Notes under the pieces: model-generated
The model's database searches: none
What the model was told of the DNA's origin: nothing
What the model saw: only the letters and a program-made list of their open reading frames with translations
Position numbers and translations under genes: made by a program
From: Phycisphaerales bacterium
Lineage (GTDB): Bacteria > Planctomycetota > Phycisphaerae > Phycisphaerales > SM1A02
NCBI GenBank assembly: GCA_009691915.1
Contig: SIAD01000001.1
Location: forward strand, 248,001 to 312,000
Direction: 5' to 3'
DNA: 64,000 nt
Shown here: in pieces, positions 3 through 17,645 of the stretch
How positions within the stretch are numbered: the first letter of the stretch is position 1
Layout of the letters: each line of letters starts with the position of its first letter

Positions 3-3000
3 CCGACCCTTCACCGCATGGGAATCCAGGCGTTTGAGCCGGTGCTCGTCGAGGGGAATGCCATCAAAATTCATCCTCTGGTCTGCGCCGGATACAACGC
101 GGACTTCGACGGCGACCAGATGGCCGTCCATCTTCCTCTCTCGCTCGAGGCTCAGGTCGAAGCGCAGGTGCTCATGATGAGCACGCACAACATCTTCAGC
201 CCGGCCAACGGCAATCCGATCGTCAGCCCGTCGCAGGACATCGTGATGGGTGTCTACTTCCTAACAACTGCACCGATCGAGCCGCCCGTCGACCCGCCCA
301 ACCAGCGCTCCAAGGTCCCGTCGTTCGGTTCTGTGCACGAACTGATTTTGGCGCACGATCTGCGCAAGGTCGGGGTCCACGACTGGGTCGATGTCCGGCT
401 GGAACGGTTCTCTGAAGTCGTCGGAGATCAAGCCGACGCTCCCAAGGCAGCTCCCGCCAATCACCGCTTCCGCACGACTGTTGGTCGCGTGATTTTCTCC
501 GAGATCCTCGCGGACGGTATGCCCTTCTACAACTGCGCCCTCGGCAAGAAGGGGGCTGCCCGCGTCATCGACGACACCTTTGCCCGCAAGGGGAAGGCGA
601 CGACGATCGAACTCCTCGACGCCCTGAAGGAGACTGGCTTCAAGGCATCTACGACCAGCGGACTCTCTTTCGGCATCACCGACCTGCACATCCCCGAGAA
701 CAAGGAAAAGCTGATCAGCGAAACGCAGCGCAAGGTCGACCGCGCTCAATCCAACTACGAGGACGGCAACATCACGGACGACGAGCGGCGCAACCGCGTG
801 CTCGATGCCTGGGCTCAGTGCCGCGATGGCCTGCAGAACATGCTCATCGAGACTCTCAGGACCGACCGGCGCACGAAATGGGCAGGCACCAAGGATGTCG
901 CTGGCAATGTCCCCGGTCTCCCCTCCAAGCCCAGCCCCAGCGCTCGCTATCTCAACCCGGTCTATTTGTTCATGGACTCTGGCGCGCGAGGAAACAAGAG
1001 CCAGATGCAGCAGCTCGCCGGAATGCGCGGCCTCATGGCCAAGCCGAGCGGCGAAATCATCGAGACTCCCATCAAGTCGAACTTCCGAGAGGGTCTTTCG
1101 GTCATCGAGTACTTCTCTTCGACCCATGGAGCCCGCAAGGGACTCGCCGACACCGCCCTCAAGACCGCCGACTCCGGCTACCTCACGCGCAAGTTGTGCG
1201 ATGTGGCTCAGAGCGTCGTCGTCATCGAGCACGACTGCGGCCAGACCAGCGGCATCGCCAAAGAGGCGATTTACAAGGGCGAAGAGGTGGATGTTCCGCT
1301 GCGCGACATGATTCGCGGACGCACCAGCTGCGAAAATATCGTCGATCCGCGCACCGACCGCGCGATCGTGTCCCGCAACGAGATCATCACGGTCGACAAG
1401 GCCCGTGAGATTGAGGCGCTTGGCATCCGCACGGTGTTTGTGCGAAGCCCGCTCACCTGCCAGACCGCGCGAGGGGTCTGCGGTGCCTGCTACGGCATGG
1501 ATATGTCAACTGGGCAACTCGTGGAAGTAGGATTGGCGGTCGGGATCATCGCCGCAGAGTCGATCGGCGAGCCTGGCACGCAGCTGACGATGCGCACCTT
1601 CCACACCGGAGGAATTGCAGTCAGCGCGACCACTGAGAACCAGTGGAAGGTCACGCAGGCCGGCACGATTAAGTACAGCGACTGCGGTGAGGTCAAGGTC
1701 ACGATTGACCAGAAGCCTCTGTGCATCGCGCTGCGCAAGACGGGCGAAGTGCGCATCCTCGATGCCAAGGGACGGGAGCTCGAGAAGTACAAGGTTCCGT
1801 ACGGCGCCACCCTGCTGGCCGTCGCCGGCGACGCCGTCAAGAAGGGGCAGTCGGTCATTGAGTGGGACATCCATGTCGCGCCGATCCTTGCCGAAAAGTC
1901 GGGAAAGATCCGCTTCCGAGACATCGAAGACGGCGAGACCGTGCGCATTGAACGCAAGGCCAACAAGGAAGAGATGGTCGTCATTGAGCACAAGGGTGAA
2001 AAGCACCCGCGGATCACCATCGAAGACGAGGCCGGCAATGTGCTTGACCTCCACCATCTCCCCGCCAAGGCCCATATCGAGGTGAAGGACGGCGCGCCCA
2101 TCGACGCCGGGCAGCGCATCGCGTTCACCCCCAAGGGTGCCGCGAGAAGTGCCGACATCGTCGGTGGTCTTCCGCGCGTCACTGAGATCTTCGAAGCGCG
2201 CATCCCCAAGGATCCTGCAGTTCTGGCCCGAATCTCAGGGCGCGTCGAACTGCTCCCCAACGAGCGCCGCGGCAAGATGACCATCCGCATTCACGCGGAG
2301 GGTGCCAAAGAAGAGCTGGTTGAGGATCACTACGCCCTTCAGGGCAAGCGACTCCTTGTCCACACCGGCGATACTGTCGAAGCTGGCGACGCCCTCACCG
2401 AGGGGCCGCTCACTCCGAGCGAGATCTTGGCGATCAAGGGTGAGGACGAACTCTATCGGTACATGCTGACCGAAGTGCAGAATGTCTACCGTGCACAGGG
2501 AGTGCCCATCAGCGACAAGCACATCGAGGTCGTGCTCCGCCAGATGCTCAGCAAGGTGCGCGTTGTCGAGGTCGGTGACACGGGTCTCCTCCCCAATGAT
2601 GTCGTGGAGCGCCATGTCTTCCGCAAGGTGAATGAGGATCTGGCCGGCACACTGAAGATCGAAGACGCCGGTGGCACCACGCTGGTCAAGGGAACACTGG
2701 TCGCCAAGGACGAGGTGAAACAGGCGAATGCCGAGGCGGAACTCGCGGGTAAGCACATCGCCAAGACCAAGCGAGCCAAGCCGGCGCGCGCCCGCACGCT
2801 GCTCCTGGGCATCACCAAGGCGTCGCTTCAGGCGGAGAGCTTCCTCTCGGGAGCAAGCTTCCAAGAGACAACCAAGGTTCTTACGGAGGCCGCGCTCAGG
2901 GGTGCCGTCGACAATCTGGTCGGTCTCAAGGAAAATGTGCTGCTTGGGCATCTCATTCCGGCCGGAACTGGGTTCGACACCTATACAGGAATCATTGTGG

Positions 3001-3200
3001 CGCAGCTCGTCACCGCCCCTGCGGACCCTGACGGAGAAGTCGCCGAAATCGAGGCGGCTGCCCAGGCGGCGGAGGCCTTGGGTGCCGAGCGGGTCGGCGA
3101 GGCACCTACCATCAAGCAAGTGGCCACTATGGCCGCTGCCGAGCAGGTTGCCTTCGACGGCAACGACGCATCGGATCACGCCTCCGAAGACGACCAGTAG
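3..3200 (+). CDS. rpoC: DNA-directed RNA polymerase subunit beta' (5' end missing)
   Basis: Catalytic largest subunit of RNA polymerase. The reading frame is open from base 3 and begins inside the conserved [15 protein letters not shown] stretch, so roughly the first 430 codons lie upstream of the window. The Mg-binding NADFDGDQ motif is encoded at about 96-119. The trigger-loop region reads [15 protein letters not shown], and the second zinc site is present (DCG followed by [14 protein letters not shown], around 1234-1490). The C-terminal tail is acidic (EDDQ) and stops at TAG 3198-3200. rpoB is expected directly upstream. The first internal ATG at 18 is not the true start. Identification is secure. 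Confidence 0.98.
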
Positions 3201-3207
3201 CCTTGGG

Positions 3208-3684
3208 ATGATGGATGATCCTGTGCGCGATCCCTGGTACCAGGGCGGGTTGCAGTTCTCCTGCACTCAGTGCGGGAACTGCTGCACGGGTGCCCCCGGT
3301 GCCGTTTGGTTCACTGAGGAAGAAGGTCGCGCCATGGCCGCGCAAGTATCACTTTCGGAGCAGGAGTTTCTCGATGGGCACACCCGTCTCGTCGGATCCC
3401 GACGCTCGCTCAAGGAGATAGAGACCAGCCATGGGTTCGACTGCGCGTTCCTTGATCGTGACTCGGTTCCCGGTAAGGCCTTGTGCCGGATCTATCGCGC
3501 AAGGCCATCGCAGTGCCGGACCTGGCCGTTCTGGCCGACCAACTTGAGTTCGAGGCGCGCGTGGGAGCAAGCCAGAGCGGCGACACCGTGCCCTGGGATG
3601 GGCGCGGGCGCGCTCGTTAGGGTCGAAGAGATCCGGATCATGCGCGATCAGGATCAACTAGACAACGGATCCGCTCCCTGGTGA
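3208..3684 (+). CDS. YkgJ-family cysteine-cluster protein 1
   Basis: Predicted 158-residue cytoplasmic protein of the YkgJ/CxxCxxCC family, thought to bind Fe-S or zinc; its biochemical role is unknown. Visible motifs are CTQCGNCC near the N-terminus, then GFDCAF, LCRIYRARPSQCRTWPFWP and a late TPCPG, giving about eight Cys in the usual family order. It starts 8 bases after the rpoC stop, so it is probably co-transcribed with the polymerase genes. Two consecutive ATGs (3208 and 3211) are equally good starts. A second, diverged member of the same family follows 6 bases later. Confidence 0.85.
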   Translation: MMDDPVRDPWYQGGLQFSCTQCGNCCTGAPGAVWFTEEEGRAMAAQVSLSEQEFLDGHTRLVGSRRSLKEIETSHGFDCAFLDRDSVPGKALCRIYRARPSQCRTWPFWPTNLSSRRAWEQARAATPCPGMGAGALVRVEEIRIMRDQDQLDNGSAPW

Positions 3685-3690
3685 GCGACC

Positions 3691-4218
3691 ATGCTCCGTC
3701 CAACCACGCCGCTGGATGATCGGACAATTCTCTCGTGGTGGCGTGCCGCCGGTGAGGCGCCCGTTCGCGACGCATTTGAAGCACTCGCGGAGCATGCGGC
3801 GACAGTCGCGCAATTCCATCGTCCGATCTGTCTGAGCTCCGGTCGCTGCTGTCGCTTCAAGGACCACGGTCACTCACTGCTGGTCACTGGACTCGAGGCG
3901 GCGTGGGTTCTTCGTCGAGTGCGCCGACGGGTCACCGTCGCCGAGACCACCTCGGCGCGCCGCAACGGCGTGTGCGTCCACCTTGTTGAAGGGCAGTGCT
4001 CGATTCACGCGACGCGGCCCCTCGGTTGCCGCGCCTACTATTGCGACTCCTCGGGCGGCCCATGGCAAGCGGACCTCGCAGAGAGCCTGCACAACGCGGT
4101 TCGGCGGCTCCACGATGACCTGTCGATCGAATATCTCTGCGCAGAGTGGACCTATCTGGTCGAGGCACTTTCGCAGGCAGACGGACGGGGACTTCTTCCG
4201 CACGGCCTTACGCCGTAG
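3691..4218 (+). CDS. YkgJ-family cysteine-cluster protein 2
   Basis: Predicted 175-residue soluble protein. The Cys pattern is CLSSGRCCRF in the first third, then GVCVHLVEGQCSIHATRPLGCRAYYCD, which is the signature of the YkgJ-like Cys-cluster family. A late Cys sits in YLCAEW. The spacing differs from the preceding gene, so this is a separate subfamily rather than a recent duplicate. It begins 6 bases after gene 3208-3684 and is followed 9 bases later by another gene on the same strand, so all are probably one transcript with rpoC. Metal binding is inferred from the Cys cluster only. Confidence 0.8.
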   Translation: MLRPTTPLDDRTILSWWRAAGEAPVRDAFEALAEHAATVAQFHRPICLSSGRCCRFKDHGHSLLVTGLEAAWVLRRVRRRVTVAETTSARRNGVCVHLVEGQCSIHATRPLGCRAYYCDSSGGPWQADLAESLHNAVRRLHDDLSIEYLCAEWTYLVEALSQADGRGLLPHGLTP

Positions 4219-4227
4219 GATTGGGCC

Positions 4228-5190
4228 ATGCGAGAGTTTGAGCTTCGCGGCGACATCACGCGCGCCGAAATCGAGGGGTACAAGTTCCCCTTGGGAATCG
4301 AGCCAGTCTCGCTGCCCGCACCCAAGCAGGGTTTCACCCTCGAATACACGCCGGGGGAGGATGGGGATCCGGATACCTACGCCTTCCATGTCGTGGTCAG
4401 CCATGACCGCCTCAAGCCGATCCTCGAAGACGCCTTCGAGCTCCTCCCGGAAGAGGTCGTCCCCATCGTCGAGATCGGCTCGCGCGATGCCTACCGCGCA
4501 CTTGATGTCTACATCGGAAGTGAGCCAATTCCGACCAGCGAGTTTCTTGAGTCGTGGCGTCAGTTCGAGGCGATTCTTCTTGAGGACGGGTCGATCGGAG
4601 CGGGAGGCAATGCCGAAGAACCATTCGTGGAAGTGTTCCTCGATACATGGAAGGGTCTGCTCATCAATGTCCCCATCGGGATGCGCCGTGAAGTGGAGCG
4701 GCTTCTTGCGCGTCACGGTCTCCGCGAGGTTCTCGAGACCTGGCCTCAGGATCTTGAGCGATCCCCTGAACCTCCCTCGCAATTGCGCGAAGTGCTGGTT
4801 ACCGAAGATGACCAGAGCCCTGATCTCGACGAGATTCTCCTTCAGCTGCGCGAGTTCTGGGGGCTCGAACTGGATGTCGACCCCGAGGTCAATGTCGACG
4901 AAAGCGGTCGGCGGTTGGGGATGGTTCTCTGGCATGCGATCGTGCTCGCCTCGCGTGAGGGGAAACAGAGCAAGGGGGCGTACCTCACCTTCTGGGCTAC
5001 CGCGAGCAATCTCTCCGAAATGGAACGGCTCGTCGGTGATTATGTCGATGCGCGCCTTCCGGAGTGGCAGGTCGATGGATTCTTCTCGGTCGACCGCGTG
5101 GCCTTCGACGAACGCCCCGACGAACTGTCAGACCTCGTGCCTCGCCGCAGCGAATCTGAAATCCACATCGCCTCGGTTGACGAGTGGTGA
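4228..5190 (+). CDS. conserved-looking hypothetical protein
   Basis: 320-residue acidic, soluble protein without signal peptide or membrane segment. I do not recognise the family. The sequence has strong codon bias (G/C third positions) and no low complexity, so it is a real gene. There are two roughly similar-sized halves rich in Asp/Glu; the second ends in SEIHIASVDEW. It sits 9 bases behind the second Cys-cluster gene and is probably the last gene of the rpoC transcript, since the next gene is convergent. No function is assigned. Confidence 0.75.
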   Translation: MREFELRGDITRAEIEGYKFPLGIEPVSLPAPKQGFTLEYTPGEDGDPDTYAFHVVVSHDRLKPILEDAFELLPEEVVPIVEIGSRDAYRALDVYIGSEPIPTSEFLESWRQFEAILLEDGSIGAGGNAEEPFVEVFLDTWKGLLINVPIGMRREVERLLARHGLREVLETWPQDLERSPEPPSQLREVLVTEDDQSPDLDEILLQLREFWGLELDVDPEVNVDESGRRLGMVLWHAIVLASREGKQSKGAYLTFWATASNLSEMERLVGDYVDARLPEWQVDGFFSVDRVAFDERPDELSDLVPRRSESEIHIASVDEW

Positions 5191-5203
5191 AGTGCGCGGG
5201 GTG

Positions 5204-5230
5204 GCGTCGGTTGGCACCCGGTGCCTACGC
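5204..5230. terminator. possible bidirectional terminator hairpin
   Basis: Between convergent genes, GGCAC-CCG-GTGCC (5213-5225) forms a 5-bp stem, flanked by GCGT (5204-5207) and ACGC (5227-5230), which can pair outside it. It overlaps the livF stop codon. There is no T-tract, so this is only a structural suggestion. Confidence 0.3.
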
Positions 5231-5941
5231 GCCGAGGTACGCGCTCTGAACCCGCGGATCGCCCAAGAGCGCCGACGCCGGACCGCTAAACGCGATTCTC
5301 CCCGTCTCCATCACATAGCCATTGCGTGAAAGCCCCAAGGCGCGCCGGGCGTTCTGTTCGACGAGGAAGATCGTCATTCCCTCACGATTGAGCCGGCTGA
5401 TTGCCTCAAAGATCCGCGACACGAGGATGGGTGCGATCCCCATGGAGGGCTCATCCATCATCAGGAGGCGTGGCCGACTCATGAGCGAGCGCCCGATGGC
5501 GAGCATCTGCTGTTCTCCCCCCGAGAGCGTCCCAGCCAACTGAGACTTGCGCTCTTCCATGACCGGAAAGAGTTCCCAGACATGGCGGAGATCGCGCGCG
5601 ATGGCATCCGCATCGCGGCGCAAGTACGCCCCCATGCGCAGGTTTTCGAGGACGGTCATCCGGGCGAACACCCGTCGACCCTCCGGCACCTGCACCAGCC
5701 CGCGCGCGATGACTTCATCGGGACGAAGCCCTATCAGCGACTCCCCCGCCAGACGGACATCGCCTCGCCGCGGTACAACGACCTGACTGATCGACATCAG
5801 CGTCGTACTCTTGCCGGCTCCGTTGGAGCCGATGAGCGAGACGACCTCTCCCTCGTCGACGGTCACGCAGATGCCGCGAAGGACTTCGATGGCCCCGTAT
5901 CCCGCGTGAAGGTCGACGACTTCCAGCAGCGGCGTGCTCAT
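5225..5941 (-). CDS. livF: branched-chain amino acid ABC transporter ATP-binding protein LivF
   Basis: Second ATPase of a LivFGHMK-type importer, 238 residues, the usual length. Walker A GSNGAGKST is at residues 38-46; the signature LSGGEQQM and Walker B LLMMDEPS are intact; the H-loop region reads VEQNARRAL, a LivF hallmark. The chosen start is the ATG at 5941, which overlaps the livG stop in ATGA; a longer frame upstream has no family similarity. Last gene of the liv cluster. The substrate (Leu/Ile/Val or another amide or amino acid) cannot be told from sequence. Confidence 0.95.
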   Translation of the reverse strand: MSTPLLEVVDLHAGYGAIEVLRGICVTVDEGEVVSLIGSNGAGKSTTLMSISQVVVPRRGDVRLAGESLIGLRPDEVIARGLVQVPEGRRVFARMTVLENLRMGAYLRRDADAIARDLRHVWELFPVMEERKSQLAGTLSGGEQQMLAIGRSLMSRPRLLMMDEPSMGIAPILVSRIFEAISRLNREGMTIFLVEQNARRALGLSRNGYVMETGRIAFSGPASALLGDPRVQSAYLGA

Positions 5942-6972
5942 CCGTTCTCCTCCACTCCGAGGTACGCCTCGATGCACCTAGGATTCGAGCGGATCGCATC
6001 GGGAGATCCCTCGGCAATGGTGCGACCATACTGGAGAACATGGATCCGATCGGAGATCCCCATCACCAGCTTCATGTGGTGCTCGATGAGGATGACGGTC
6101 GTCCCGCGATCGCGCACCCGGCGGATTAGCGCCATCAGCCCGCCGACTTCGGTCGGATTCATCCCGGCGGCAGGTTCGTCAAGGAGGATGAGCTTCGGTG
6201 TGCCTGCGAGCGCGCGCGCGATCTCCAGACGCCGCCGGAATCCATAGGGAAGCGCCCCCGCCGCCTCAAGCGCGCGGTCGGCGAGGCCGACGAATTCGAG
6301 CAGTTTCATGGCCTCCGCGTGGAACCGTTCCCGCTCGCGCCGGAATCTCGGCAGCCTGAGTAGTGCGCTGAAAAACCCCGCCCTCATGCGTGCATCCATA
6401 CCGACGAGCACATTCTGCACGAGGCTCAGTTCGTTGAACAGCCTGATGTTCTGGAAGGTTCGCGCGACACCGGTTCTGGCAATGTGATCCGGAGATCGCC
6501 GTGCGCGCGACCAGTTGGTCCATGCCGCGCCCGCTCCGACGAGACCGCCGCACACGAGCGGAAGTGCTCCCCCGAGCCACCCAAGAGTGGCAACCGCCCT
6601 GCCAAGATCGGCGAGCGCACTTCCCCATGGGAATGGCTGCTCGTAGATGTAGTTGTCGATCACCGATGCCTGCCAGAGCCTCTCGACATTGACTGTGGCG
6701 GCGACTCCTACGCCGACGAGCAAGAACGCCACCAGAAGTTCCACCATGGTCTGCCGGGTCATCGGCGCGACCTGTTCCCTGCCGTCGAGCTCGACATGTC
6801 CATGGGTTGGCGGGTGGATCCCCGTCACCGCGTTGAACAGTGTCGTCTTGCCGGCGCCGTTGGGGCCGATCACCGCGAATATCTCCCCTGGTTCGACGGC
6901 GAAACTGACATCATGCACCGCGATGATCCCGCCGAATGTCACGCCTACCCCATGAACCTCCATCGCCTTCAT
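5938..6972 (-). CDS. livG: ABC transporter ATP-binding protein LivG with inserted membrane hairpin
   Basis: First ATPase of the Liv-type importer. The 344-residue length exceeds the usual 250-260. Walker A GPNGAGKTT is at 36-44, the Q-loop at VARTFQNIRLF (Q174), the signature-like region at PYGFRRRLEIARAL, Walker B at LILLDEPAAGMNP, and the H-loop at LIEHHMKLVM. Between the Walker A subdomain and the Q-loop, at about residues 72-157 (bases about 6502-6759), there is an extra segment with two hydrophobic stretches (about 75-94 and 131-151) joined by an aromatic linker. Canonical LivG has a few residues here. The frame is continuous and both halves align to LivG, so this is an in-frame insertion and not two genes. 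The start ATG 6972 overlaps the livM stop (ATGA). Confidence 0.93.
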   Translation of the reverse strand: MKAMEVHGVGVTFGGIIAVHDVSFAVEPGEIFAVIGPNGAGKTTLFNAVTGIHPPTHGHVELDGREQVAPMTRQTMVELLVAFLLVGVGVAATVNVERLWQASVIDNYIYEQPFPWGSALADLGRAVATLGWLGGALPLVCGGLVGAGAAWTNWSRARRSPDHIARTGVARTFQNIRLFNELSLVQNVLVGMDARMRAGFFSALLRLPRFRRERERFHAEAMKLLEFVGLADRALEAAGALPYGFRRRLEIARALAGTPKLILLDEPAAGMNPTEVGGLMALIRRVRDRGTTVILIEHHMKLVMGISDRIHVLQYGRTIAEGSPDAIRSNPRCIEAYLGVEENG

Positions 6973-7985
6973 ACGCGCCCCCGTTCGAGCTTTGGAGGGA
7001 GGATTCCGGTTGGTTTGATGCGCACCGCGATCACCAAGGCGAGCCCGAATATGAGGAACTTCCAGTTGTTGGGGGAGAGCATGACATTGCCCTGCGATCC
7101 GATTCCGTGGGCGGCCATCCAGGCAGTCGCCTTGGCGAGGACGATTGAATTGAGCCCGACCATCACTAGCGAACCCACCAGCACACCCGCCACGCCACCG
7201 ATCCCTCCGACGATGATGATGCACAAGGCGAGAATCGACACCTGAAAGTCGTAGTTGTTTGGTTCCCCAGTCGAACTCAACACACTCGCGGAGAGCCCGC
7301 CCGCAAACGCGGCGATGGCCGCACCGGTCGCGAAGGCGATCATCTTCGCTCTCTCCACGCGAATCCCCATCGACCGCGAGGCGAGCTCGTCCTCTCGGAT
7401 GCTGAACCACGCCCGGCCAAGACGCGACCGCTCGAGATTGCGCGCAGCGATGACCGTCAGGGTCAGCAAGGCGAGCAGCAGGTAGTACCAGCTGCGTTCA
7501 TCGTTGGATGTCCACATCGCCCCACCGATCGAGGGCGCGGGCAAGGGATTGATCCCCTGCATCCCCTTGGTGATCGAATCGAGATTCTTGAGGATGTCCT
7601 GCACGATCTCTCCGAATCCCAGCGTCACAATCGCGAGGTAGTCCCCCCGCAGTCCCAGCGTCGGCGCCCCCAGAATGAATCCTGCCAGTGCGCCGATGGG
7701 AATCGTGAGCGCGAGTGCCGGCCAGAAACCCAATTGAAACGGATAGATCTCACAGCTGAGGATTCCGAAGGCGTAGGCGCCGATGGCCATGAACGCGGCG
7801 ATCCCCAGATTCAGCATTCCCGCGTACCCGGTCATCACATTCAACCCCAGGGCGAGAATCGCGTACAGGAATACGGTTCGCACCGCCTCGCTCAAGGCGA
7901 GTTCAGCGGGAAGCACCAGATCGACGAGCGGGACGACAGCCGCGATGGCAAGGATGGTGACGATCGGCCCTGGGCGCCAGCGCAT
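6969..7985 (-). CDS. livM: branched-chain amino acid ABC transporter permease LivM
   Basis: 338-residue polytopic inner-membrane permease. The family landmark LGLNVMTGYAGMLNLG is followed by GLRGDYLAIVTLGFGEI (the EAA-like loop contacting the ATPase). Several hydrophobic helices follow, ending near KPTGILPP. The start ATG 7985 is taken because it lies 1 base after the livH stop and gives the usual N-terminus (a short basic segment, then a helix). It pairs with LivH to form the translocation pore. Confidence 0.95.
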   Translation of the reverse strand: MRWRPGPIVTILAIAAVVPLVDLVLPAELALSEAVRTVFLYAILALGLNVMTGYAGMLNLGIAAFMAIGAYAFGILSCEIYPFQLGFWPALALTIPIGALAGFILGAPTLGLRGDYLAIVTLGFGEIVQDILKNLDSITKGMQGINPLPAPSIGGAMWTSNDERSWYYLLLALLTLTVIAARNLERSRLGRAWFSIREDELASRSMGIRVERAKMIAFATGAAIAAFAGGLSASVLSSTGEPNNYDFQVSILALCIIIVGGIGGVAGVLVGSLVMVGLNSIVLAKATAWMAAHGIGSQGNVMLSPNNWKFLIFGLALVIAVRIKPTGILPPKLERGRV

Positions 7986-7986
7986 C

Positions 7987-8943
7987 TCAGACCTTTTCCT
8001 TCCGAGACGAACCCAGAATCCCACTGGGTCGGAAGATCAGGATCAGCACGAGGATGCAGAAGACGATGGTGTTTGTCCAACGAGTTTCGAGGTACTGGTC
8101 ACTCATCGCGCGGACGCATCCGATGGTGAGTCCACCGAGCACGGCCCCGGGCAGACTCCCGATGCCGCCGAGCACCGCCGCAGTGAACGCGTCGAGCCCG
8201 GCACGGGTGCCCATCTGAAAGCCGATAGTGTTGTTGTACAGCGAGTAGACGACGCTCGCGAACCCTCCAAGGGCACCGCCGATGAAGAAGGTCGCGCCGA
8301 TCACTCGGTCCACCGGGATCCCCATGAGCGAAGCCGCCACCGGGTCCTGAGCCACGGCGCGCATCGCACGGCCGAGGTTTGTGCGATTGACCATTAGGGT
8401 CAGTGCGACCATCAGAGGAATAGTGACCGCGAAGACGAGCGCATCAGCCGGGGTGATCCGAATGAACGACTCTCCCAGCAGATTGACCTGGGGGACAAGC
8501 GCGGGAAAGTCCTTGGGGGCTGCAGCCGCCACGCCGCCCGCAAAGACATCCATGGGGAGTCCACCCCAGAACAGCCCGAGATTCATGCAGATGAATGAGC
8601 ATCCGATCGCGGAGACGAGCAGCGCCAGTTTGGATGACCTGCGGAGTGCGCGGTACGCAACGCGATCCAGTGACCAGTTGAGCGCCCCGCAGAAGAGCGC
8701 ACTGCCCACAAGCATCGCGGCGACTCCAACCGCCTGGCCGCCCGGGCCCCACGACTCCATCCCCAATACGCCCATCAGCGTCAGAGCGAAGAACGCCCCC
8801 AGCATAAAGACATCGCCGTGAGCGAAGTTGATCAACTCGATGATCCCATACACCATCGTGTAGCCGATGGCGATGAGCGCGATGATCATGCCATTGGAGA
8901 GGCCGGTGATCAGCTGCTGGACGAGGACTTCGAAGTCAAACAT
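7987..8943 (-). CDS. livH: branched-chain amino acid ABC transporter permease LivH
   Basis: 318-residue polytopic permease. The N-terminal GLSNGMIIALIAIGYTMVYG and INFAHGDVFMLGAF are LivH landmarks. The cytoplasmic loop reads MRAVAQDPVAASLMGI, and the C-terminus RPSGILGSSRKEKV is typical. It follows livK after a 57-base gap that contains a hairpin, and precedes livM by 1 base. Together with LivM it forms the membrane channel of the importer. Confidence 0.95.
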   Translation of the reverse strand: MFDFEVLVQQLITGLSNGMIIALIAIGYTMVYGIIELINFAHGDVFMLGAFFALTLMGVLGMESWGPGGQAVGVAAMLVGSALFCGALNWSLDRVAYRALRRSSKLALLVSAIGCSFICMNLGLFWGGLPMDVFAGGVAAAAPKDFPALVPQVNLLGESFIRITPADALVFAVTIPLMVALTLMVNRTNLGRAMRAVAQDPVAASLMGIPVDRVIGATFFIGGALGGFASVVYSLYNNTIGFQMGTRAGLDAFTAAVLGGIGSLPGAVLGGLTIGCVRAMSDQYLETRWTNTIVFCILVLILIFRPSGILGSSRKEKV

Positions 8944-9000: not shown

Positions 9001-10206
9001 TCAGTCGCCGAGGATCTTTACGAACTCAAACTTGCCGCCGTGCACCGTCTGCCCGCTCATCACAGTGCTGGAGGTGTCGCCATTGGCATCAAAACTCCAG
9101 CGGGCCAGCACGCCGTCGAAGTCCTTGGTGGCCGCAATCGCCTCGAGGACACCGGCTCGATCCTTGGTCTTGGCGCGCGCCATGGCCTGCAGGATCACGC
9201 GCGCACACTCGTAGCCGTAGGCGGCATATGCCTCCGGATCCGCGCTGTACTTCGTCCGGTACGCCGAGCAGAACTGGGCCCCGCGGCCGGTGAGCTTTTC
9301 CGGCGGCAGACCGCCAAATGTGATGAAAGTATTGTCGTTGAGGTTGCCCGCACCGGCCGCGTCGATGAACGCCTGCTCGAAACACCCATCGGGGACCATG
9401 TACTTCCCCTTGAAGCCGCCGGAACGGAGATCCTTGGCGATCTGCCCCGCGTTGCTCTGGGTCGTCCCGCCGAAGTAGACGAGATCTGGATTCAACGCCT
9501 TGATTTTGGTAACGGTTGATCGGTAGTTCGCAGCCTTGGAGTCAATCCCTTCGAAGCCGACGACCTCGATACCCAGCGACTCAGCCTGCTTCTTGAAAAC
9601 ATCGGCGATCCCCTCCCCGTACAGCTCTCGGTCATGAAGAATGAAAACCTTGTGGATCCCGAGATCTTTCGCCCAGTTGGCTGCCTGAACGCCTTGAAGG
9701 TCGTCGGTGGGAACTACCCGGAAATAGTTGATCTTCCCCGACGGTCGATAGACCATCGGCTCGTTGGCCTCGCCCTTCCCCGGCTTGGTAAGTCCGGGAT
9801 AGGTGTTCGCTGGACTCACCATCACGAGACCAGCTCGATTGAGAATCGGGATCGCCACCTTCGCCGCCCCCGAGTTGAATGTCCCGATATAGGCCACGAC
9901 CTCCTCATCCTTCGCGGCGGTGTTGGCATTCTGCGCCTCGACCGCGGGATCCCAGTTACCGCGCTGCGGGCTCGCATCGTCCATGTCCTGATACGCAATC
10001 GTCCAGCCATCGACCTTCCCTCCGACTTCGTCGATGGCCATCTTGATGCCGTTGACGATGGTCGAAGTTTGGGCGTTCGCGCTCCCGGTACGGGGGAGGC
10101 TAGACACGATCTTGAGTGTCCCCTGGGCGGAAGCCGAGTGTGATCCAAGCAGACCGACACATGGAATGAGGATCAGTGTGAGGATGGCGGTGCGCGTGGC
10201 ATTCAT
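9001..10206 (-). CDS. livK: ABC transporter substrate-binding protein, Leu/Ile/Val-binding family
   Basis: 401-residue secreted solute-binding protein. The N-terminal signal peptide has a hydrophobic core (ILTLILIPCVGLLG) and an AxA cleavage site (SASA-QG). The mature part begins LKIVSSLPRTGS, like Leu/Ile/Val- and amide-binding periplasmic proteins (Peripla_BP_6 family). ASPANTYPGL-like and FILHDRELYGEGIA segments mark the two-lobed fold. It is first of the liv genes, 23 bases after the lpxB stop. Ligand specificity is not evident; short-chain amides, urea or amino acids are all possible for the family. Confidence 0.92.
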   Translation of the reverse strand: MNATRTAILTLILIPCVGLLGSHSASAQGTLKIVSSLPRTGSANAQTSTIVNGIKMAIDEVGGKVDGWTIAYQDMDDASPQRGNWDPAVEAQNANTAAKDEEVVAYIGTFNSGAAKVAIPILNRAGLVMVSPANTYPGLTKPGKGEANEPMVYRPSGKINYFRVVPTDDLQGVQAANWAKDLGIHKVFILHDRELYGEGIADVFKKQAESLGIEVVGFEGIDSKAANYRSTVTKIKALNPDLVYFGGTTQSNAGQIAKDLRSGGFKGKYMVPDGCFEQAFIDAAGAGNLNDNTFITFGGLPPEKLTGRGAQFCSAYRTKYSADPEAYAAYGYECARVILQAMARAKTKDRAGVLEAIAATKDFDGVLARWSFDANGDTSSTVMSGQTVHGGKFEFVKILGD

Positions 10207-13319: not shown

Positions 13320-14310
13320 AGTGAATCCCACGCGAGCCGAGCCACCGTTCACACTCGAGTGCGGCTTGGCATCCCATCCCCGCGGCGGTGACCGCCTGCC
13401 GGTAGTGGGCATCGGCGACATCCCCTGCGGCAAACACGCCGTCAACGCTGGTGGCAGACGAACGGGTCGCAAGCGTCACATACCCCTGAGAGTCGAGCGC
13501 GACCGCAGCCGAAGATCCGTTGCGAAGGAATTCAGTCGCCGGCGCGTGTCCGATGGCGACAAAGAGCCCGGAGACCGGCAGCGTGCTGCGGCTCCCCGTT
13601 GTCGTGTCTTCGAGTTCCACGGCTTCGATCCGCTCCTCGCCGATCACGCTGACCACCCTCTTGTTCCAGTGCGGCACCGAGTTCGACATACCGAGCAGTC
13701 GATCCTGCATGGTCTTGGACGCGCGGAAGGAGTCGCGCCGGTGAATCACATGGACCTTCGAGGCGAACTTCGTGAGGTAGGTTGCCTCCTCCATGGCCGT
13801 ATCCCCGCCGCCGACAACCGCGAGCTCTTTGCCGCGGAAAACTGGTAGTGCGCCGTCGCAGACTGCGCAGGCGCTGACCCCCCCACCCGAGCGCGCCAGA
13901 CGCATCTCGCCGGGGACTCCCAGCCAATTCGCGACCGCACCGGTCGCGATGATGACGCTATGGGCGCGGACGGTCGCGCCGCCGGCCAGCCTTAGGGTGA
14001 ACGGGTGCGCTGAGAAATCGCAGGACTCGACATCGTCGTCGATGACCCTTGTTCCAAACCGCTCTGCCTGAGCGCGAAAGTGTTCCATCAACTCCGGACC
14101 CGTGATTCCCTTCGGAAATCCGGGGTAGTTTTCCACTTCCGTAGTCAGCATGAGCTGCCCACCTGGCAGCACAGGTGCAGGATCGCTCCGTGGAGTCCCC
14201 TGGATGCACAGCGGCTCGAGGTTCGCGCGTGCGCAGTAGATCCCCGCCGTCCATCCGGCGGGCCCTGATCCGATGATGACCACCCGCTCAATGCGCCCGG
14301 CGTCGCTCAC
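13318..14310 (-). CDS. trxB: thioredoxin-disulfide reductase
   Basis: 330-residue cytoplasmic FAD/NADPH enzyme that reduces thioredoxin. FAD-binding VVIIGSGPAGW is at the N-terminus. The redox pair CAVC lies at C148/C151 in GGGVSACAVCDGALP. The NADPH motif is VVGGGDTAMEEA, and the second FAD motif GVFAAGDVAD is near the C-terminus. Length and motif order match low-Mr TrxB. Its ATG overlaps the stop of the upstream secreted protein gene (ATGA), so the two are translationally coupled. Confidence 0.96.
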   Translation of the reverse strand: MSDAGRIERVVIIGSGPAGWTAGIYCARANLEPLCIQGTPRSDPAPVLPGGQLMLTTEVENYPGFPKGITGPELMEHFRAQAERFGTRVIDDDVESCDFSAHPFTLRLAGGATVRAHSVIIATGAVANWLGVPGEMRLARSGGGVSACAVCDGALPVFRGKELAVVGGGDTAMEEATYLTKFASKVHVIHRRDSFRASKTMQDRLLGMSNSVPHWNKRVVSVIGEERIEAVELEDTTTGSRSTLPVSGLFVAIGHAPATEFLRNGSSAAVALDSQGYVTLATRSSATSVDGVFAAGDVADAHYRQAVTAAGMGCQAALECERWLGSRGIH

Positions 14311-15770
14311 TTCAGCTCACCCTCTTCGCGAGCCAGTGCCCGCACCGGGGGCCAGATCAGAAGATCGCCCACGGCCGCATCGTTAGAGGTTTCCAGTCCT
14401 TGGTCGTCGTCGTTGTCCGCGCCCATGGCCCAGACCATGCATCCGGATGCCCAGATGCGACCCAGCGGTGTCTCGATCGCCTGGCGCTCTGTGCCGAGCG
14501 ACCGGTACTGAAGCCTTCCGTACTCCTTGTCGTAGGGGTCGAAGTCGAAGCGCTTCTGGAAGAACACCGCGTAGGCGCGCTCTCGATCCTTCGGCCAAGT
14601 CTGTTTGAATTCGTTGTAGTAGCCGCAGAGCCCCGCACTCATAATCGTGCCGTTTACTTCGGCAATCAGAACATTGCGCCACGCGAACGCCCGCTCCATG
14701 TCGCGGACCATCGCCAGAACCGCCGCGTACTTGATTGGATTTGCTCTCGCGAACTCCGTCGGGGTCTGATGGAGCGCGGTGTAGGGCCTTACCCGCCAAC
14801 GCCGCCACCAGTCGTCGTAGACATTGAGCAGCTTGTCGTCACTGGCCTCGAGCGATCCGTGCACCTGAGAGACCCGCCGCCACATTTCCTGCGTGTTGAA
14901 CCGTTGCAGAGCCCCCTCACCGGAATCCTGGCTGCCCACGACCAGAGCAAAGTTTTCGGAGTCAATCGTCGATCCCGTCTTGGGTGAGAGTGCCTGGCGA
15001 AGCACCGCCTCGGTGACAATGCGGTCGCCCTCGGGCATCTGAAGGCGCCTCATGCGCTCGTTGTCCGAGGGGCGCAGGAACGAGTACTCCTTCAACGCAA
15101 CCTTCTTCATGAGATCGACCCCGAGTCCCTTGAGGTAAACCCACATGAAATCGCGGTGGATGGAGAGCGCCTCAGCCAGGTTTTCGAGCGCGAAGAGTTT
15201 CTCTTCAAGCATGGACTGTTCGCACGCCTGCCTCAGAACGCGGGCGTAGGCGATGCCGACCCGGAAGGCACCCTCGATGTCCCCCGCTTCACCACGCCGA
15301 TACATCTCGGCCGTGGCGTATGCGCCGATGGCGCGGATCGCCTTGAAGTAGCCATAGCGGATGCGTGCGATGTCCGCGCCATCACCGATCTCGATAGCCA
15401 GCCCGGCCTTGGCAATCGCAGGATCGACGGCGCTGGTGCCGTATCCGAGGCCGAACACGAGCCCGAACTGCGCGTCAACGAGAGCCTTCTCCATCGCCTC
15501 ATTTGCCTTCGCCCACTCTGCGACCTTGGCCCATCCGTCCATCTTTGGCCAGATGGTCCCCTGATTGAATCCCTCGCCGACTTCAAAGGGCGGCGGTGTC
15601 ATCGTGAGATATGCCGCCAGAACCGCCGGACCCGAGCGGTTCTTCTGGGTGACATCCTTGAACTGGTTGTTCAGTGCGCGGGCGACCGCCGCATCGTCAG
15701 CCACAGCGCCCGGGACGGCGACCCAGAGCGCAACCGCGAGCATCGGAACCCATCGAACAGTGCCTGACAT
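14307..15770 (-). CDS. secreted hypothetical protein coupled to trxB
   Basis: 487 residues starting at ATG 15770 (an in-frame ATG at 15782 is an alternative). It begins with a signal peptide: Arg-containing N-region, hydrophobic MLAVALWVAV, likely cleavage after AVA. The mature part is mostly helical with Arg/Glu-rich stretches, and three Cys are scattered in the C-terminal half. I recognise no domain. It overlaps trxB by 4 bases, so a role linked to envelope redox or simply co-expression is possible, but nothing in the sequence shows it. Divergent from the alanine dehydrogenase remnant. Confidence 0.75.
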   Translation of the reverse strand: MSGTVRWVPMLAVALWVAVPGAVADDAAVARALNNQFKDVTQKNRSGPAVLAAYLTMTPPPFEVGEGFNQGTIWPKMDGWAKVAEWAKANEAMEKALVDAQFGLVFGLGYGTSAVDPAIAKAGLAIEIGDGADIARIRYGYFKAIRAIGAYATAEMYRRGEAGDIEGAFRVGIAYARVLRQACEQSMLEEKLFALENLAEALSIHRDFMWVYLKGLGVDLMKKVALKEYSFLRPSDNERMRRLQMPEGDRIVTEAVLRQALSPKTGSTIDSENFALVVGSQDSGEGALQRFNTQEMWRRVSQVHGSLEASDDKLLNVYDDWWRRWRVRPYTALHQTPTEFARANPIKYAAVLAMVRDMERAFAWRNVLIAEVNGTIMSAGLCGYYNEFKQTWPKDRERAYAVFFQKRFDFDPYDKEYGRLQYRSLGTERQAIETPLGRIWASGCMVWAMGADNDDDQGLETSNDAAVGDLLIWPPVRALAREEGELK

Positions 15771-15874
15771 GGGGCATCTCATATGGATTTTCAAGCGTAG
15801 CACACTCAATGGCACAGGAGCATCACTACACTCACCGAACCCCGTCGACCGCAACCAATGATCGGAGAAAGACC

Positions 15875-16162
15875 ATGATTGACGGCGTCCCTACAGAAGT
15901 GAAGACTGACGAGTTTCGCGGCTGCATGCGCCCGGCAGGCGTTGAAGTGCTCGGGAAGGATGGGCACTCAGTGCTCGTTCAGTCGGGGGCCGGACTCTGC
16001 CGTGGGTTCATCGATGAGCAGCACGCAACTGCAGGGGAACTGGTCACCACCCACCGCGATCCCGGATACACAATCGATGGCGTCGTCCACTGCTGCGTCG
16101 GAAACATACCGAGGGCGGTTGCGCAGGCACACGAGCTCGAGTGTGCGCCGCTGGGTCTCTGA
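15875..16162 (+). pseudogene. ald: alanine dehydrogenase remnant with large internal deletion
   Basis: A 95-residue open frame. Residues 1-53 match the N-terminus of alanine dehydrogenase (GVPTEVKTDEFR, MRPAGVEVL, GHSVLVQSGAGL). The sequence then jumps directly to the C-terminal part of the same enzyme (DPGYTIDGVVHCCVGNIPRAV; intact enzymes have DGVVHYCVANMPGAVPRTS). About 210 residues, including the NAD-binding Rossmann domain and the catalytic Lys and His, are missing, and the tail is diverged before the stop. The substrate-binding Arg of the EFR motif remains. A good ribosome site (GGAGAAAG, 15864-15871) precedes ATG 15875, and purD starts 3 bases after the stop without an obvious site of its own. 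The frame may therefore survive as a translated leader for purD. It cannot be an active dehydrogenase. Confidence 0.8.
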
Positions 16163-16165
16163 GCG

Positions 16166-17500
16166 ATGTCCCTCCCACTTCCAGACAAGGTGAATGTCCT
16201 CCTCGTCGGATCGGGAGGGCGCGAGCATGCCCTGGCGTGGCGGATCTCCCAATCTAAACACTTCGGAACGCTCTGGGTCGACCGGTATGCCAACGCCGGA
16301 CTCCTGGAATTCGGCAAGCCCTGCCCTGAAGAGTTCTCCCTGAAGCGACGGTACTACCTCGATCGATGGATGGCCAAAGAGAAGATCGACTTCATCGTCA
16401 TCGGACCGGAAGGGCCGCTCGCTGAGGGGCTCGTCGATCAGTTTGCAACTCCCACACGCCCAGTCTTTGGACCCACGAAGGCGGCCGCGCGCCTCGAGTG
16501 GGACAAGGCGTACGCCAAGTCGATCATGCGGCAGACTTCGGTGCCGACCGCGGAAGGGCGCGTCTGTACGACTCTAAGCGCCGCGCTCGCCTATGTCACC
16601 GAGCGCAATGAACCATGCGTAGTCAAGGCCACTGGTCTGTGCGCAGGTAAGGGGGTGACGGTCTGCGGAGACACAAAAGAAGCGATCGCCGCCATCAACC
16701 GCTGCATGGCGTCGAGGGAATTCGGCGACGCCGGGGCATCAGTGGTGATCGAAGAGCGCCTCGAGGGACAGGAAGTCTCGGTGTTCGCGCTGGTCGATGG
16801 ACGAACTATCACCCTTCTTGACACCGTGCAGGACCACAAGCAGGTCGGTGAGGGTGACACGGGCCCCAACACCGGCGGCATGGGCGCTTATTGCCCGACG
16901 CCGCTCCTTGATCAGGCCGCGCTCGCGTCAATCGCACATGACATCTTTGTGCCGACGATCGATGGCCTGCGAAGGCAGGGTGTCGATTACCGGGGAGTTC
17001 TCTTCGCCGGGATCATGCTGACACACGCCGGTCCAAAGGTTCTTGAATTCAACTGCCGTTTCGGAGACCCCGAGACGCAGGTGCTCATGGCGAGATTCAA
17101 CGGAGACCTCCTCAAGACCCTCTGGCAGACCGCGACCGGATCCCTTGACGAAGCCGAGTTTTCGTTTGAGCCTCGCTGTGCCTGCTGCGTCGTCGTGTGT
17201 GCCCCCGGATATCCCGGTCCAGTTCCGAAGGGTTCAACCGTCTCCGGGCTCGCGCCGCTTCGCGACTGCGACGGATCCGCCGCAAGGCCATACTTCTTTC
17301 AGGCCGGGACCCGAGCCACCAAGGATTCTCGCCCGGTGACGAGTGGCGGACGGGTCGTCGGAGCAACCGCCCTTGGAGAGGGACTTGCAGATGCCGCGCT
17401 GGCGGCGACAGAGGCGGCCAAACGAATCGTGTTCGATGGTGCGTTCTTTCGTCGTGACATCGGCCACAGGGTGCTCCACTCGCAATCAACCGGTCGATAA
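16166..17500 (+). CDS. purD: phosphoribosylamine--glycine ligase
   Basis: GAR synthetase, step 2 of de novo purine synthesis: phosphoribosylamine + glycine + ATP. 444 residues with the usual architecture: N-domain VLLVGSGGREHALAW, ATP-grasp with VVKATGLCAGKGV, the family signature RFGDPETQVLM, and a C-domain hydrolase-like lid. An extra stretch around residues 50-70 (PEEFSLKRRYYLDRWMAKE) replaces the shorter family linker. It starts 3 bases after the alanine dehydrogenase remnant and probably relies on coupling, because no Shine-Dalgarno is visible. Confidence 0.95.
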   Translation: MSLPLPDKVNVLLVGSGGREHALAWRISQSKHFGTLWVDRYANAGLLEFGKPCPEEFSLKRRYYLDRWMAKEKIDFIVIGPEGPLAEGLVDQFATPTRPVFGPTKAAARLEWDKAYAKSIMRQTSVPTAEGRVCTTLSAALAYVTERNEPCVVKATGLCAGKGVTVCGDTKEAIAAINRCMASREFGDAGASVVIEERLEGQEVSVFALVDGRTITLLDTVQDHKQVGEGDTGPNTGGMGAYCPTPLLDQAALASIAHDIFVPTIDGLRRQGVDYRGVLFAGIMLTHAGPKVLEFNCRFGDPETQVLMARFNGDLLKTLWQTATGSLDEAEFSFEPRCACCVVVCAPGYPGPVPKGSTVSGLAPLRDCDGSAARPYFFQAGTRATKDSRPVTSGGRVVGATALGEGLADAALAATEAAKRIVFDGAFFRRDIGHRVLHSQSTGR

Positions 17501-17610
17501 TTTTGCAATGACCAAATCAATTCGCCCCCTGGCCGCGTACGGATGCTTGAACGGGTCTAGACTCCCGTCCTCAGGATCACCGTTCAGATAAGCCCCAGTT
17601 TCGCCAAACA

Positions 17611-17634
17611 GGTCGCCTCTTTGCGACCTTGGAG
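17611..17634 (+). promoter_or_regulatory. hairpin directly upstream of a ribosome-binding site
   Basis: GGTCGC (17611-17616) and GCGACC (17623-17628) form a perfect stem, extended by A17610-T17629, with a 6-base loop. GGAG (17631-17634) follows at once and serves the ATG at 17646. The stem could shield or expose the ribosome site, or be an end-of-transcript hairpin for purD. Confidence 0.35.
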
Positions 17635-17645
17635 TGTTCGACCTC

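Follow-up and report, generated by a model that had tools for sequence, protein, structure and literature searches.

A LivG-type ABC importer ATPase with a predicted membrane hairpin between Walker A and the Q-loop

Introduction

ATPases of ABC importers are taught as soluble subunits that are docked on their permeases solely via coupling helices. A livG-type gene in a 64,000-nucleotide stretch of the genome of a Phycisphaerales bacterium (here called the window) raises the question of whether such an ATPase may itself cross the membrane. A reading of the sequence alone had placed an insert of about 86 residues at 6502-6759, between Walker A and the Q-loop, and had proposed that it forms a membrane hairpin. 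Here, we describe the insert, its relatives and its partner permeases, and discuss the explanations that may account for them.

The livG gene and its operon

The genes livK-livH-livM-livG-livF form a tight operon that runs from 10206 down to 5225 on the minus strand (Table 1). According to Pfam, the binding protein of the operon is of the Peripla_BP_6 type and both permeases are BPD_transp_2 proteins, whereas LivG itself contains ABC_tran in two stretches (95.8 bits, cut-off 25) and a BCA_ABC_TP_C tail at its C-terminus (37 bits, cut-off 25.5). The best NCBIfam model is LivG PRK11300.1, whose score of 269.3 bits in two stretches is under the equivalog cut-off of 362, and the protein is therefore named LivG-type here instead of LivG equivalog. 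Since the window protein lies under this naming cut-off, relatives of similar length (approximately 340 residues) may be hidden behind generic names.

The frame (5938-6972, minus) is open for all 344 residues, as had been read before. The motif labels used here (Walker A, Q-loop, signature, Walker B E266 and H298), which we take to be the textbook assignments, fall in columns that are invariant or nearly so among 35 sequences: Walker A 36-43, Q174, most of the signature 241-250, E266 and H298. All catalytic motifs are intact, in agreement with the sequence-only reading. The signature of the window protein, LPYGFRRRLE, has the form YGxRRRLE that also occurs in its near relatives, and YGxQRRLE is present in several more distant hairpin forms and in most of the plain (insert-free) LivG proteins examined.

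Table 1. Features of the hairpin livG operon in the window
Feature	Position	Strand	Basis
livG, ABC ATPase of a branched-chain-amino-acid-type importer, internal hairpin	5938..6972	-	344 aa open frame; operon order
livF, partner ATPase without insert	5225..5941	-	ATG overlaps livG stop (ATGA)
livM permease	6969..8024	-	stop overlaps livG start (ATGA)
livH permease	7987..8943	-	Pfam
livK-type periplasmic binding protein	9001..10206	-	Pfam; operon order
Walker A GPNGAGKT, LivG 36-43, upstream of hairpin	6844..6867	-	sequence
Insert of 89 residues, LivG 68-156, missing in plain LivG	6505..6771	-	spacing 135 vs 46; alignment
Predicted TM helix 1, LivG 73-94	6691..6756	-	AlphaFold2 helix; hydropathy 2.39
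Putative extracytoplasmic cap, LivG 95-131: two short helices and loop with W100, F114, W116	6580..6690	-	
Predicted TM helix 2, LivG 132-157, Gly/Ala-rich, G142xxxG146; W154 and R158 at inner end	6502..6579	-	
Q-loop glutamine Q174, 17 residues past TM2 end	6451..6453	-	invariant column
LivH 12-residue extension, TM4-TM5 loop, residues 129-140, putatively periplasmic	8524..8559	-	
LivM segment before last TM helix, residues 301-322, ending SPNNWK	7059..7124	-	

Hydropathy, charge and predicted structure of the insert

The insert lies between beta-strand 3 and the pre-Q-loop helix, ahead of the Q-loop. Its measured size and position (89 residues, 6505-6771) are close to those read earlier, and it extends the distance from Walker A to the RTFQ motif to 135 residues, compared to 46 (once 50) in plain LivG. 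The 42 aligned rows that carry the insert represent Planctomycetota, Hydrogenedentota and differently labelled MAGs, and in 39 of them the same distance is 131-136 residues.

Two 19-residue hydropathy peaks of 2.39 and 1.71 are present in the window insert, and the remainder of the protein does not exceed 1.55. Two equally high peaks appeared in 45 of 2000 shuffles of the window protein; this single-sequence chance test provides moderate evidence, and the comparison across the 42 rows provides stronger evidence. In that comparison, the best hydropathy was at least 1.39 in the TM1 half of each insert and at least 1.23 in the TM2 half, with means of 2.13 and 1.67, respectively, against 1.20 for the best value elsewhere in the protein. 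TM2 is only moderately hydrophobic, its peak being under the best peak elsewhere in 5 of the 42 rows and a rough insertion-energy estimate being positive in all 22 sequences tested. The two strongly hydrophobic stretches noted in the window are thus conserved, and their loss in close homologues, which had been named as one of two points against a hairpin, did not occur. On the other point, a buried soluble subdomain, the evidence is indirect. Mean net charges over the 42 rows were +1.3 and +2.0 for the flanks and -1.4 for the loop, and the positive-inside rule was followed in 40 rows and broken in two. Because of this charge bias, from which the side of the membrane is deduced, the cap is placed outside the cytoplasm.

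Structure modelling was performed with AlphaFold2 on the window LivG aligned with 34 relatives, and gave a pLDDT of 87.3 for the whole protein and about 86-96 for the blocks of the insert. Four helices (73-94, 96-105, 116-128 and 132-157) were predicted in the insert, the two long ones (73-94 and 132-157) being linked through a two-helix cap; when modelled alone, the insert again formed four helices (pLDDT 92.7, pTM 0.75). Solved ABC ATPases (50 entries among the matches listed) could be superposed on the modelled LivG core with an rmsd of 1.8-3.2 A over 223-243 residues, including MJ1267 (1g6h; 230 residues, 1.9 A, Z 28.7), and the insert is therefore predicted to leave the ATPase core intact. 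The conserved hydrophobic pattern, the positive-inside charges, the confident two-helix model and the superposable core together lend good support to the proposed membrane hairpin. The insert, its conservation, the predicted helices, the single change on the tree of the partner subunits and the co-occurring LivH extension (see below) are observations; its insertion into the membrane, well supported by sequence, its orientation, its contacts with LivH/LivM and any effect on ATP hydrolysis are inferences.

A derivation of the hairpin from a known domain was considered and found no support in searches of Pfam, PDB sequences and folds. When 22 inserts were compared with Pfam at E up to 1, no family matched more than three of them, and the best E-value was 0.001 (Trp_oprn_chp, two members). 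The PDB sequence search with the insert returned two entries at E of about 0.2, and the fold search with the insert found no significant match. The best fold alignment was with a two-TM K-channel-like pore, 3beh, over 89 residues (VIA Z 5.1, rmsd 6.1 A), a weak likeness that is under what the tool rates as common; the E-values of Foldseek were above 3. Neither the viral fold library nor PADLOC provided anything informative.

Distribution of hairpin-bearing LivG

The closest sample comprises 61 genomes, namely the window's own and those of 60 relatives. The window protein is matched over nearly its full length in 22 of them, all with the insert, and a contig end truncates one additional match (G017). 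The insert is present in 79 of the 181 genomes of the family sample. A profile of the insert found it in 13 of the 392 genomes of the phylum sample, a count that misses divergent forms such as G384 and G226, in which the profile matches nothing although each carries an insert (spacing 122 in G384 and 128 in G226). Outside the phylum, and counting the genomes that led to each group, the insert was found in 6 of 68 genomes of the group of Hydrogenedentota-labelled MAGs, 4 of 45 of the phylum with Deltaproteobacteria- and Oligoflexia-labelled MAGs, and 1 of 194 of the group of a Verrucomicrobiia-labelled MAG. When a species-genome collection was scanned with a single peptide pattern, 35 relatives were retrieved, and the frame is open across the insert in all of them. 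One record titled as a Bacteroidia MAG (L058) encodes a LivG close to those of L059 and L060, which sit among planctomycete relatives; judged by this similarity, its Bacteroidia label may be wrong.

A search of 72,556 plasmid records with the insert alone returned no match. LivG-like ATPases, whose identity over the two flanks reaches 58%, are common in these records. Three records cover 80% or more of the query, and all six plasmid LivG proteins that were read are plain. A Paraburkholderia plasmid (L130, 3996-5804) encodes LivM and LivG as a single chain of 602 residues, which has no hairpin.

In the window's own genome, the next match to the window LivG is a general ABC ATPase (E 2e-20), and no second, plain LivKHMGF copy was seen there. 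A same-genus relative, G006, has, besides its hairpin form, one extra plain LivG, which belongs to a second, plain LivKHMGF operon (L033, G006:C8, 3220-8194). Another locus (L084, G142:C17) contains two hairpin operons with equal match scores and opposite orientation, approximately 6.5 kb apart (2664-7700 and 14227-19263), which represent either a duplication or an assembly palindrome.

Conservation and selection

The loci of the 35 relatives were fetched by a peptide pattern containing PFPW, and the invariance of PFPW in those loci is thus circular. Residue conservation was counted in 25 loci that came from whole-protein, profile or LivH searches outside the PFPW fetch, a set in which some bias persists because one profile was built from PFPW loci. 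In this set, both PFPW prolines are kept in less than 75% of the relatives. W100, F114 and W116 are kept in 23, 24 and 21 of the 25, and G142, G146, W154 and R158 in 22, 23, 23 and 24, respectively. The best-kept positions of the insert are those of the aromatic cap, the GxxxG helix and the charged inner end.

Identity to the window insert ranges from 27 to 52% among relatives. In 13 of 14 pairs, dN/dS was 0.02-0.40 for the insert (dS was saturated in the 14th), as compared to 0-0.075 for the LivG core. The insert is under purifying selection, which is weaker than that on the core.

Hairpin operons as a subtype

A LivH match at E of 1e-30 or lower was found in 82 of the 392 phylum-sample genomes, and identity to the window LivH divides them into 21 genomes with at least 56% and 61 with at most 47%. 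In the former group the LivG site could be read in 14 genomes, all of which have the insert, the contigs of the other seven ending earlier; in the latter, 11 of the 61 were fetched, 10 of these were readable and all 10 have a plain LivG. The LivH match and the insert also occur in the same six genomes of the Hydrogenedentota group.

Phylogenetic trees were built from the window and selected loci (LivG core, 54 and 56 rows; combined, 53 and 56 rows; LivH/LivM/LivF, 56 rows). Near-copies and loci broken by frame changes or contig ends, including L081, L083 and L085, were omitted; three of the six plasmid operons (L130, L133 and L134) are outside the trees because the motif filter missed their LivG, and L088-L092, L094, L095 and L107 end before or within LivG and are uninformative on the insert. 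In the LivH/LivM/LivF tree, a single change on a branch with support 92 splits the 42 insert-bearing operons from the 14 plain ones, compared to a mean of 12.6 changes for shuffled states. The combined trees, to which the LivG core was added, also have one change and keep the split, with weak support of 22 (53 rows) and 53 (56 rows). Resolution is poor in the free LivG-core tree, which requires four changes; its starred branches force at least two in the 54-row tree (distant outgroup L039 included) and one in the 56-row tree. A LivG-core tree with the hairpin forms kept together had a higher likelihood than the free search and was not rejected (AU p 0.85). A single origin of the hairpin operons is thus likely on these phylogenies, but not proven.

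Partner permeases

Of 41 hairpin operons, 40 have the LivH extension, as compared to none of 11 plain planctomycete operons; one of six plain plasmid operons has an extension, with unrelated letters. The LivM segment before the last helix tends to be longer in hairpin operons than in most plain LivM proteins, and its end motif occurs in 27 of 41 hairpin operons and in none of the 11 plain ones. The plain LivM of L033 fills these columns in part, so that the segment marks the hairpin weakly and less well than the LivH extension does. In this permease family the coupling-helix motif lies in the cytoplasm; from this general knowledge and the positively charged C-terminal end, both loops are placed on the periplasmic side. 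These co-conserved loop features favour a contact of the hairpin with LivH and LivM.

The hairpin might have made up for helices that LivH or LivM had lost, but this was rejected, because the peak numbers are maintained. On average, LivH has 8.0 hydropathy peaks in hairpin operons (n=41) versus 7.6 in plain ones (n=11), LivM has 8.5 versus 7.9, and the only Pfam domain of LivM is BPD_transp_2 in 41 of 41 hairpin and 11 of 11 plain operons. With helix number unchanged in both permeases, the hairpin appears to be additional.

One relative, L077 (G470:C639, 3160-4902), encodes a LivG of 581 residues whose inter-TM loop is 237 residues longer than in the usual hairpin form. The F.W cap is lost and replaced by a longer hydrophilic domain, for which Pfam gave no match above cut-off and which has a match at E of 1e-50 or lower in one of five genomes of its order, its own. 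L077 is also the sole hairpin operon without the LivH extension, and its LivM does not have the NVxxSPxNWK part. The joint loss of the cap and the LivH extension is what a shared interface predicts, although it represents one event; moreover, L093 and several others have an altered cap yet keep the extension.

Possible roles of the hairpin

In our judgement, LivG of the hairpin operons is probably an integral-membrane ATPase whose hairpin packs on LivH/LivM and whose cap meets their periplasmic loops. TM1 would exit the cytoplasm after strand beta-3, the cap would lie outside, and TM2 would return into the pre-Q-loop helix. With the GxxxG motif in TM2, the hairpin may pack beside the helices of LivH/LivM and thereby fix LivG permanently in its transporter half, and the aromatic cap would contact the enlarged periplasmic loops of both permeases. 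Since TM2 ends 17 residues before Q174, it is conceivable that movement of the hairpin feeds into, or is driven by, the ATPase cycle.

The same observations may also be read as those of a plain membrane anchor that makes no specific contact with LivH/LivM, the loop features of the permeases being unrelated and merely inherited with the operon. The insert does evolve faster than the core and has drifted widely (27-52% identity to the window), and the subunits are inherited together, so that shared descent alone could explain the co-occurrence of cap and LivH extension without any contact. However, the best-kept positions (W100, F114, W116 and G142xxxG146) go beyond hydrophobic filler, and the LivH extension is absent in the only operon whose cap is replaced, L077; a plain anchor is unlikely. 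The conserved cap, the large hydrophilic domain in the loop of L077 and the way TM2 continues into the pre-Q-loop helix, to end 17 residues short of Q174, would also suit a transmembrane sensor, in which the cap reads the loaded LivK or the outer gate and TM2 relays this to the Q-loop and, alongside the coupling helices, tunes ATP hydrolysis; but no binding site was recognised, and the L077 domain has no Pfam match above cut-off, and we regard this role as quite unlikely. Its broader form, an importer class with a membrane-crossing ATPase, a periplasmic cap that reads the outer side and a covalent line through TM2 to the Q-loop, is rather unlikely. If true, the line from the cap through TM2 to the Q-loop would be a second outside-in control route besides the coupling helices of the permeases.

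Two further explanations would deny the hairpin its place across the membrane. Instead of spanning the membrane, the segment might fold as a soluble helical subdomain or rest as a hairpin on the membrane surface, considering that several members have marginal hydropathy in TM2 (down to 1.23) and that the short cap helices might be interfacial. The predicted helices of 22 and 26 residues, the positive-inside pattern in 40 of 42 rows, the GxxxG motif and the retention of hydrophobicity in members with diverged letters speak against this, and it is very unlikely. An assembly or frame artefact might be suspected because the sequences are largely MAG-derived, but the same kind of insert in 79 of 181 family genomes and in several phyla, together with purifying selection, makes it hardly credible: independent genomes refute it.

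With an ATPase that probably spans the membrane itself, this conserved importer subtype offers a natural test of how far coupling and the stability of the complex depend on coupling-helix docking. It also indicates that the connection between beta-3 and the Q-loop is able to carry a membrane domain.

Comparison with known systems

Plain LivG (PRK11300.1; MJ1267, 1g6h) shares with the window protein the ABC core and its fold, the BCA_ABC_TP_C tail and the K-H-M-G-F operon, but in the plain forms examined Walker A is separated from RTFQ by 46 residues (50 in one case), and the hairpin predicted for the window protein is absent. No description of a hairpin LivG appeared among the open-access papers listed, which take in only a minority of the subscription journals. 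Other large inserts occur in ABC ATPase folds, namely the regulatory insertion of CFTR, the arm of ABCF proteins and the coiled coil of SMC/Rad50, all of which are soluble. A large insert is tolerated in all of these proteins and in hairpin LivG, and only that of LivG is predicted to span the membrane.

The teichoic-acid exporter TagGH of B. subtilis is described as having an ATPase subunit with a TM helix and an extracellular domain, and the text names this membrane-crossing subunit TagG (PMC11466899). TagGH resembles hairpin LivG in that an ABC ATPase subunit itself crosses the membrane and has a part outside, whereas it is an exporter in which the TM segment sends the C-terminus of the ATPase outside (PMC11466899). 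Hairpin LivG belongs to an importer; ATPase motifs lie on either side of its internal two-helix hairpin, and both protein ends are predicted to stay in the cytoplasm. A hairpin within an importer ATPase fold thus differs in place and topology from TagGH, the closest published precedent that we found.
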